Below are positions 4,398 through 41,279 of a stretch of DNA of 41,279 bases, piece by piece. A program made the position numbers and the translations under genes. Origin of the DNA: Dehalococcoidia bacterium. GTDB taxonomy: Bacteria > Chloroflexota > Dehalococcoidia > Lucifugimonadales > VXLM01. The notes under the pieces are model-generated. The model ran no database searches. It saw only the letters and a program-made list of their open reading frames with translations, and was not told the DNA's origin. The DNA lies in contig VXLM01000093.1 in the NCBI GenBank assembly GCA_009841605.1, positions 1-41,279 on the forward strand, read 5' to 3'. The stretch's first letter is position 1. The number at the start of each line of letters is the position of its first letter.

Positions 4398-4886
4398 ATG
4401 ATTCGAGGAATCGTACATATAAGACATTGGGGCTTGGTCCCGTTGCTTCTCCTCACTGCATGTGGAGGAGGCGGAGATGAGTTGGGCAAATGGAATATCG
4501 ACGTTCAGGGCGTGGGTGCCAGCATACTGACCCACCACGCGGGTCAGGAGGTCCTACTTTCAATCACCTGCAGTGAAAAGGGTTTCCGCGCGGCCATACA
4601 TACAAATATCCATTCGGACTTCAGAGACGTAGTCCATCCGGTGACGATCAAGTTCGACCAAAACGAACCTGCTGAACATCTCTGGAACTATTGGCACTTC
4701 GCAGAATCGGGCTTTTACAAGACTAGCGTCGTCGCCAACGAGCCTAGCGCATTTATCGAGCAGCTATTGGACGCCAATCGATTGACTGTGGACATCGCCA
4801 TAACAGAGACCAACTCGGTACCCGCAACTTGGGACGACGTGGGCGGCTTTGCGATTGCATACGAGGCCATCAAGCGCGAATGCTGA
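4398..4886 (+). CDS. Small lipoprotein of unknown function
   Basis: A 162-residue protein starting at the ATG at 4398. This start gives a proper lipoprotein signal: a short basic segment, the hydrophobic stretch GLVPLLLL and lipobox LTAC with Cys22, followed by GGGG. Starts further upstream in the same frame would run through the YHS gene. The mature part is a beta-rich domain with Cys58 (LLSITC) and a C-terminal Cys. The pattern FDQNEP...W...FIEQLLDANRLTVDI recalls periplasmic TagO/VasI-like domains, but this resemblance is weak. Base composition is more A/T-rich than copA. It lies 28 bases after the copper operon on the same strand, but nothing in the protein suggests copper binding. Confidence 0.75.
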   Translation: MIRGIVHIRHWGLVPLLLLTACGGGGDELGKWNIDVQGVGASILTHHAGQEVLLSITCSEKGFRAAIHTNIHSDFRDVVHPVTIKFDQNEPAEHLWNYWHFAESGFYKTSVVANEPSAFIEQLLDANRLTVDIAITETNSVPATWDDVGGFAIAYEAIKREC

Positions 4887-8602: not shown

Positions 8603-8671
8603 CGAATTGCCCAATTCTGGCAATCGCTCATGTCGGTTGTCACCGACACCATCTATCATGCAAACGGCGTA

Positions 8672-8735
8672 GTAGGAGCGATTCGCGAATCGCCCCCTAC
8701 GTGAGATCGGCCAAGGGTTATTTTCAGAGGCATGA
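8672..8735 (+). repeat. Composite repeat, copy 1: palindrome plus tail
   Basis: A 29-bp near-perfect palindrome (8672-8700, core GCGATTCGCGAATCGC) ends in CTAC. It is followed by a tail GATCGGCCAAGG...TATTTTCAGAGG. The palindrome also occurs at 22727-22754; the tail recurs only at 9103-9129. Confidence 0.8.
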
Positions 8736-8781
8736 CCGACCATGCGGGTGCGCTTGAGAGAGGTGAGGGGCTGCAAGGAAA

Positions 8782-9023
8782 TTTGTTGCACTGTGTTGCA
8801 TTCTGTTGCATTTTTCTCGTTATTGTAAAGTTTACGGCTTTGCCGGATCACGTGGCACAGGGTAAAACGGGGAAGCGCATGAACATGCGTCTCCGAGGCT
8901 TTTCTTTGTTTTATATGTGCCATTTGACGCCATTTTGCGCCATTTCCTAGCTGCCGCGAGTGTGGTCCGTGGACAGTCGCATAAGGATAATATGGTACAT
9001 GCGTTCTTCATTGTCAAATCGGG
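8782..9023 (-). repeat. 240-bp dispersed element with 10-bp iterons, copy A
   Basis: Matches the reverse complement of 40833-41068. The best-conserved 140 bp differ at about 25 positions (about 82 percent identity by hand alignment), and the outer 30 bp near 8992-9023 are almost identical. Iteron array 1: TTGCA at 8786, 8796 and 8806 (exact 10-bp period). Iteron array 2: three 10-bp units ending GCCATTT at 8916-8945. At its outer end the minus strand carries TTGACA (9012-9017) and, 17 bases on, CATATT. Confidence 0.8.
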
Positions 9024-9068: not shown

Positions 9069-9135
9069 AAAGGGCGGGTTTGAAATCCGCCTCTACAAGC
9101 GAGGTTGGCCGAGGCTATTTTCAGAGGAAGGGTCG
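9069..9135 (+). repeat. Composite repeat, copy 2: palindrome plus tail
   Basis: An imperfect palindrome (GGCGGGTTTGAAATCCGCC, 9073-9092) is followed by CTAC and a tail GAGGTTGGCCGAGGCTATT... ending TTTTCAGAGG. The tail matches that at 8705-8730 closely. The same unit architecture as copy 1, but with a different palindrome sequence. Confidence 0.7.
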
Positions 9136-40832: not shown

Positions 40833-41068
40833 CCCGATTTGACAATCAAGAACGGATGTACCATCATAGACACATGTGGCTACTAACCACTCACTCTCAG
40901 GACGATTTAGCAGTGGCGCAAAATGGCACAGATACAACAAAGAAAAACTTCGAAGAGCCTTGTCCATGCGCTTCCCTGTTTCGACCTGCACCACGTGATT
41001 TGGCGAAGTCGTGAACTTTACAATAACGAGAACAATGCCACAAAATGCCACACAGTGCCACAATTTGA
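40833..41068 (+). repeat. 240-bp dispersed element with 10-bp iterons, copy B
   Basis: Inverted relative to copy A (8782-9023). Iterons: two TGGCR units near 40914-40927, and three TGCCAC units at 41036, 41046 and 41056 (10-bp period). The outer end carries TTGACA (40839-40844) with CATCAT 17 bases later. In copy A all three right-hand iterons have CA where copy B has CC. Confidence 0.8.
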
Positions 41069-41215: not shown

Positions 41216-41279
41216 CGCACTCCGACCGTAGCGCCATATGCACCACCCTCTTCTTTCTACTTTCTACCTATCCCATTAC

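Follow-up and report, generated by a model that had tools for sequence, protein, structure and literature searches.

Two similar, gene-free stretches lie 32 kb apart and in opposite orientation in a contig of a Dehalococcoidia bacterium, each with short direct repeats (iterons) in phased arrays; what are they, and what would read them? We analyzed the whole stretch of DNA in which they lie (41,279 nucleotides, hereafter the window). The original prediction had left the choice between a recombinase attachment-type site, a non-autonomous mobile element, and a binding platform for an unknown regulator. We arrive at the last of these in a more definite form: with a probability of roughly two in three, judging from sequence, the two stretches are SOS promoter/operator cassettes without a gene of their own (orphans), controlled by TerS-like proteins that have diversified and regulate themselves.

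Two inverted copies and their genome-wide family

The two stretches (copies A and B) match as predicted (BLAST alignment of 244 bases, 75% identity, E = 2e-42; 185 matches in the 290 columns of a global alignment), and the outer end that had been called conserved (CCGATTTGACAAT.AAGAACG.ATGTACCAT) is among the best-kept blocks, together with one running from the leader into array 1. The iteron period is exactly 10 bp in both copies, and the expectation of two arrays in each holds in full for copy A; array 2 of copy B has only two units (40913-40931) against three in copy A (8914-8943), the gap being one 10-bp unit. Array 1 reads ATGCAACA three times in copy A versus ATGCCACA three times in copy B, which is the change from TTGCA to TGGCA that had been noticed in all three units on the other strand. 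The parts of the two copies, with the evidence for each, are the following.

8782-9023, minus strand: copy A, whole (alignment with copy B)
8989-9017, minus strand: copy A promoter TTGACA-N17-CATATT, reading toward lower coordinates (promoter and LexA-box score 18/20)
8995-9006, minus strand: copy A LexA-type box GAACGCATGTAC, within the promoter spacer (the lexA promoter region carries GAACATCAGTAC)
8914-8943, minus strand: copy A array 2, ATGGCGCAAA ATGGCGTCAA ATGGCACATA, core GCG/GCA (alignment)
8833-8913, minus strand: leader between the arrays of copy A, well kept between A and B (alignment)
8816-8832, minus strand: copy A motif AACTTTACAATAACGAG, immediately upstream of array 1 (alignment)
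8782-8811, minus strand: copy A array 1, ATGCAACAGA ATGCAACACA GTGCAACAAA, core CAACA (pattern search, alignment)
40833-41066, plus strand: copy B, whole (alignment with copy A)
40839-40867, plus strand: copy B promoter TTGACA-N17-CATCAT (score 17/20)
40850-40861, plus strand: copy B LexA-type box GAACGGATGTAC (alignment)
40913-40931, plus strand: copy B array 2, two units, GTGGCGCAAA ATGGCACAG (alignment)
41014-41030, plus strand: copy B motif AACTTTACAATAACGAG (alignment)
41035-41064, plus strand: copy B array 1, ATGCCACAAA ATGCCACACA GTGCCACAAT, core CCACA (alignment)

Copy A lies between convergent genes (an inositol monophosphatase family gene and an unnamed ORF), and it is therefore no ordinary promoter there. 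The description as gene-free was fair: the 121-aa ORF from 8923 is a mechanical frame for which no sign of coding was found, and the leader ORFs were set aside as probably non-coding, their frames being open in some copies and their substitutions, by eye, following no clear codon-position pattern. Neither an Rfam family nor a tRNA was found in the elements. Beside copy A, positions 8620-8736 of the window hold an unrelated dispersed repeat with the palindrome GAGCGATTCGCGAATCGCCC, which has a partial second copy near 9104-9128 and dozens of partial copies in two related genomes (G001 and G003).

A search of the source genome with the copies had been suggested as a check on whether the pair stands alone. 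It does not: in this genome (G000, a 3.2-Mb Chloroflexota MAG of 143 contigs, 95% complete) copy A returned 24 matches, and the pattern ATGNNNCA (ATGN3CA) repeated three times at period 10, with one mismatch allowed, returned 44, versus one for the reversed control pattern. Two modules are common to the copies, an iteron array preceded by CTTTACAATAACGAGG and, at the opposite end, TTGACA-N17-TATACT with GAACNNNNGTNC in the spacer; the middle is variable. Extended flanks are shared by C56, C101, and C48, and by copy A and C118, and contig C275 of G001 carries a tandem series of four arrays, 172 bases apart. The variable leader of some cassettes (L007, L009, and L016) holds a hairpin repeat, CCCTCACCC...CTCTCCC-ACGAC-GGGAGAGGG, which also occurs elsewhere in the loci that were read. 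At one locus (L145, G000:C72 9000-13695), CAACA and TCCCA arrays at 4403-4546 lie directly upstream of the start of a VapB-like antitoxin gene. On contig C553 of G003, orthologues of copy B and of the cassette at C39:20435 are 1.5 kb apart, which makes it probable that C143 and C39 are adjacent in the genome, meeting at position 41279 of the window and the end of C39.

Each copy reads, along its promoter strand, TTGACA-N17-TAtacT with a LexA-type box, then a leader, then 10-bp iterons. A promoter and LexA-box score of at least 16/20 was found before more than half of 37 arrays in this genome, versus 2 of 286 random stretches (420 bases each, taken from the window, with a maximum score of 16). 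The cassette box GAACNNNNGTAC also occurs at lexA itself, which is present at C140 and has GAACATCAGTAC directly after its -10 hexamer; as far as can be told, the box would be the SOS box of this clade.

These numbers bear on the first two readings of the original prediction. Two inverted copies 32 kb apart agree with an attachment-type site for a recombinase; there are, however, more than 40 arrays, with different cores and many of them before genes, and the protein family that co-occurs with them (below) has an HTH and no recombinase domain. No shared crossover core was seen among the copies. The idea found no support, and we give it next to no credence. As for a mobile element, the cassettes are dispersed, multi-copy, and turning over between species; terminal inverted repeats beyond about 5 bases, convincing ends, and a clean empty site were looked for and not found, and where an orthologous site lacks the cassette, more has changed than one clean insertion would explain. 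A candidate empty site for copy A in G001 was discarded, since the intergenic region there holds unrelated sequence.

TerS-like HTH genes with arrays on their start codons

Copies at C72 and C85 carry a gene. Their promoter, leader, motif, and array are as in the window elements and lead into an intact ORF of ~150 aa that starts inside the array, the end of the motif AACTTTACAATAACGAG being the Shine-Dalgarno-like GAGG of these gene-bearing copies. The encoded protein matches HTH_Tnp_1_2 (PF13022) above the cut-off (E = 5e-7) and, in PHROG, the terminase small subunit family phrog_2538 (E = 1e-10). An AlphaFold2 model (72 sequences, pLDDT 83) has a three-helix HTH domain followed by long helices; its best PDB matches by Foldseek are all chains of 2AO9 (phBC6A51; probability 1.00, E = 8e-3 to about 1e-2) and next Sf6 gp1, a terminase small subunit (TerS). 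Most hits of the family profile in a sequence search of the PDB were helical-repeat designs, and Sf6 TerS was found at E = 0.4. A co-occurring DNA-binding gene had been suggested as a thing to look for, and this family is a candidate.

Five further paralogues are present in the genome, two at C82 and one each at C126, C44, and C41. Each gene at C82, C126, and C44 is preceded by a LexA-type promoter of its own, and its start codon is covered by an array with another core; at C41 the promoter is present and the upstream array is less clear. LexA-type promoters precede the HTH genes in this genus, and outside it stand before some HTH genes of families f23 and f40 (some with GCAC half-sites); none is visible before those of f19 and f41. 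Placement of the array on the start codon extends beyond this genome: the best three-unit score round the start codon reaches at least 21/24 at period 10 in 40 of 81 homologues, versus 0-2 of the 81 at the control periods 7-9 and 11-14, and the units lie mostly at -10, 0, and +10 relative to the start codon. Because the iterons cover the start codon, the N-terminus of the protein is the operator translated, and the iterons spell such beginnings as MQQNAT, MEQNGT, MSHDVP, MLQNVA, and MTENVR.

The HTH family occurs in 30 of 250 genomes of the order and the arrays in 16 of 247, 12 of these 16 carrying the family as well (hypergeometric P = 1e-9). One genome from another family (G204) has 21 arrays, mostly of the CGA/CAT/CAA type, and a protein with CGACA, and also TCC/TCT arrays and a protein (helix RRTIH) with TCTCA upstream. 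Close relatives in the reference collection occur in the Chloroflexota MAGs IRC4_bin_30 and APA_bin_48, which the bin names suggest to be sponge-associated. Among viral contigs, L280 (IMGVR_UViG_3300022208_000078, 588-1011) has three 10-bp units with the core GCAG over an HTH gene start, and the pattern ATGCAACA repeated three times had no match. A protein related to the L280 family, mostly hypothetical or unannotated, is encoded by Streptococcus satellite phages (MK448444.1 and others; L303-L313), with no iteron array at its start. In other families the HTH gene is followed by a conserved second small gene (about 100-130 aa, L.RR.....W.......YL..C), often with an overlapping start (L183, L160, L188, L042, L163, L168, and others); it has no Pfam or PHROG match and was looked for and not found in the genome of the window.

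The likeness to TerS concerns both architecture and putative target. In phBC6A51 (2AO9), Sf6 gp1, SF6/SPP1 G1P, and P22 gp3 an HTH precedes a helical domain, as here, and in P22 and SPP1/SF6 the packaging site pac lies in or around the start of the protein's own gene (PMC9611059, PMC4737164). The 2AO9 protein is among the ring-shaped TerS oligomers (PMC4737164), and sites spaced by one helical turn would be well matched by HTH domains arranged in a ring or chain. In the SaPIs, operon I places the terS gene under SOS control (PMC5052747), much as the LexA-type promoters suggest here. These parallels, with the TerS-like profile and fold matches, could mean that a packaging system has been domesticated, as in a gene transfer agent or satellite, with the arrays as pac-like sites at which the TerS-like protein marks the chromosome for a terminase. 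A single terminase-large-like gene was found in the genome (L321, C47, 6202-7641), at a distance of 3.2 kb from an array; the G001 orthologue (L322, C275, 4550-5944) is 1.8 kb away from the four tandem arrays. Such proximity is not beyond chance, however: by a rough estimate, any given gene has an array within 3.5 kb with a probability of ~1/11. No capsid, portal, or tail genes are apparent among the translations listed beside the C47 gene, whose contig has no HTH gene, adjoining or otherwise. The arrays stand on start codons and between promoter and gene, and the Streptococcus satellites have the related protein and no array. We regard a packaging role as very improbable.

Unlike phage TerS genes, those described here are chromosomal, have many paralogues, lie away from TerL, and have exact 10-bp iterons and a readable helix/core code; unlike SaPIs, they form no satellite element, no capsid-remodelling genes were seen, and there are many orphan promoter/operator copies. 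Single HTH domains of SF6 TerS, by contrast, bound pac DNA weakly and with little sequence specificity (PMC4737164). Specific DNA recognition by TerS was still called unclear and controversial in a 2022 review (PMC9611059).

Covariation of recognition helix and iteron core

We write the recognition helix as a-b-T-L-e-R-W and the iteron as ATG-N5. Across 39 distinct helix/core combinations, core base 4 covaries with residue a, base 3 with e, and base 2 with b, which is linked to base 1 as well (permutation P = 2e-4 to 6e-4, with no correction for phylogeny). Where b is K or R, base 2 is C in 13 of 13 combinations, versus 3 of 26 for other residues; at a, R goes with C and E with G, and at e, Y goes mostly with A and R mostly with C. 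Close relatives differ by single steps: RTTIY and RSTIY go with CAACA versus RKTIY with CCACA, and ESTLR with AGCGG versus ESTLY with AGAGG. Further pairs are VSTLR with AGCGG, ISTLT with AGCAG, and [IL]ATLK with AGCC[AG].

To allow for shared ancestry, we took independent contrasts on a tree built without the helix residues under test. For b and base 2, 5.2 of 6 contrasts were in the expected direction and none opposite (P about 0.03-0.13); for a with base 4 and e with base 3 the contrasts were too few for significance. The rules were derived and tested on one set, with the exception of two viral contigs: L280 (helix ERTLY, array GCAGA), found later, fits three of the three rules, and the faecal phage contig L315 two of three. 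One paralogue in the genome of the window misfits (helix RETIS with a TCCCA array), no paralogue matching the orphan cores GAA, GCA, CAT, and TTA was found in this incomplete MAG, and the arrays of G066 do not match its one known protein.

Since three helix residues and the iteron core change in step, a given protein is likely to bind the iterons that belong to it; specific recognition is well supported at the level of sequence. Both cores of array 1 in the window have a matching paralogue in the same genome, the difference between TTGCA and TGGCA corresponding to T versus K in the helix. Two suggestions of the original prediction thereby gain substance, that the concerted difference reflects matching to different proteins and that the elements are a binding platform for a regulator, now a TerS-like HTH family.

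The same covariation speaks to the idea that the elements make a small SOS-induced RNA or a leader peptide and that the iterons act in RNA. The promoter does read via a conserved leader into a Shine-Dalgarno-like sequence and repeated ATG codons. An exact 10-bp period is nevertheless that of the DNA helix and not a multiple of 3 nt, the core follows an HTH recognition helix, inspection of the leader translations reveals no conserved reading frame, and Rfam gave no match; we find an RNA role scarcely credible.

Orphan cassettes and concerted core switches

When the 37 arrays were scanned for an HTH gene downstream (a set that leaves out the C72 gene, whose array has two units), strong matches were found at C85 and C126 and a weak remnant at C96; most of the others are orphans like copies A and B. 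Downstream genes are co-directional with the cassette in 25 cases versus 6, while upstream genes face it in 13 versus 15 (Fisher P = 0.008). From the reading of their translated starts, the downstream genes presumably include dnaB and genes for a branched-chain aminotransferase, a rhamnose mutarotase, and a VapB-like antitoxin.

Orthologous orphans can differ in core through all of their units at once. Copy B is 91% identical over 480 bases to its orthologue in the sister species G003, where the array reads ATGCAACAGA ATGCAACACC ATGCAACAAA, with the core CAA in all three units versus CCA here. The C44 array has CCA here and in G003 and CAA in G001, that at C56 has GAA here and CAA in both relatives, and that at C129 has CCA here and CAA in G001. 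In these switched pairs, which were chosen for examination because they differ, the constant ATG..CA bases are kept at 14-15 of 15 positions and exactly three of nine core bases differ, always at one unit position. Promoters of the orthologous orphans keep 26-28 of 30 bases in four of five comparisons, at an overall identity of 66-91%. In G001, where no RKTIY protein was found, all 11 exact matches have the core CAA. The switches may have come about through selection by a changed regulator or through conversion from another array.

Conversion belongs to a different account of the orphans, in which HTH genes left behind dead 5' ends or gave rise to MITE-like derivatives, copying by duplication or transposition raised their number, and gene conversion makes the units change together. 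That the cassettes are multi-copy and dispersed agrees with it, as do the truncated HTH frame behind the array of L007 at C96, the extended flanks that some copies share, the tandem arrays of G001, and the ACAGTGC that copy B has in common with copy A, as conversion would give. Against it, C96 alone among those of the 37 arrays that bear no gene has an HTH remnant within a distance of 700 bases, orthologues keep promoters and constant iteron bases better than the surrounding sequence, unit-specific tails are mostly retained while cores change, and downstream genes are preferentially co-directional. We judge this account unlikely, yet worth keeping in mind.

Under the preferred reading, the elements would derive as orphan copies of the 5' control region of phBC6A51-like, TerS-type HTH genes. 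A sigma-70-type promoter, to judge from its LexA box, would fire once LexA is removed, and the transcript would pass through one or two arrays of 10-bp iterons. In gene-bearing copies, where the array spans the Shine-Dalgarno and start-codon region, the encoded protein is proposed to bind there, perhaps as a ring or chain that sets an HTH on the same face of the DNA at every helical turn, and so to shut off its own synthesis. Each paralogue has an iteron core of its own, and bases 2, 3, and 4 of that core follow three helix residues, as the covariation shows. Orphans, keeping promoter and array without the gene, would put adjoining DNA under the SOS response and one paralogue, a function we infer: the C72 protein (helix RTTIY) would control copy A (CAACA), and the C85 protein (helix RKTIY) copy B (CCACA). 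A change of one base through all three units, as seen for copy B, would then move a cassette between regulators, possibly under selection.

The proposed oligomeric regulators on three period-10 direct repeats have a counterpart in MraZ. The MraZ fold is AbrB-like and not HTH. The proteins here differ from it in this respect, and their diversified cores contrast with the one conserved site of MraZ, for which no LexA box is reported. In Mollicutes an octamer of MraZ binds three direct repeats of period 10, (AAAGTGKN3)3 (PMC5282649). Paralogues of the LacI family are mostly autoregulated and have a code readable from local regulation (PMC4052901; Camas 2010 cited therein); their operators are palindromic, whereas here we have phased direct repeats in the regulator's own N-terminus, plus orphan SOS cassettes. 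TerS target DNA in the protein's own gene, LexA-controlled terS (in SaPIs), and triple 10-bp repeats (in MraZ) are already known. No description of a system that joins private, diversified iterons to a readable code and to dozens of orphan SOS cassettes was found in the open-licence literature searched.

The wider proposal, which we put forward tentatively and hold with slightly less than even confidence, is that a chromosomally domesticated, diversified TerS-fold family forms a regulatory network, with private iterons read through a simple code, an operator in each protein's own N-terminus, and dozens of orphan cassettes that switch regulator by a change of one base per unit. With dozens of protein/site pairs provided by nature, the family gives access to a proposed one-residue/one-base code; it also shows what may be a route from packaging protein to gene regulator, along which orphan promoters appear to change regulators by concerted one-base changes.
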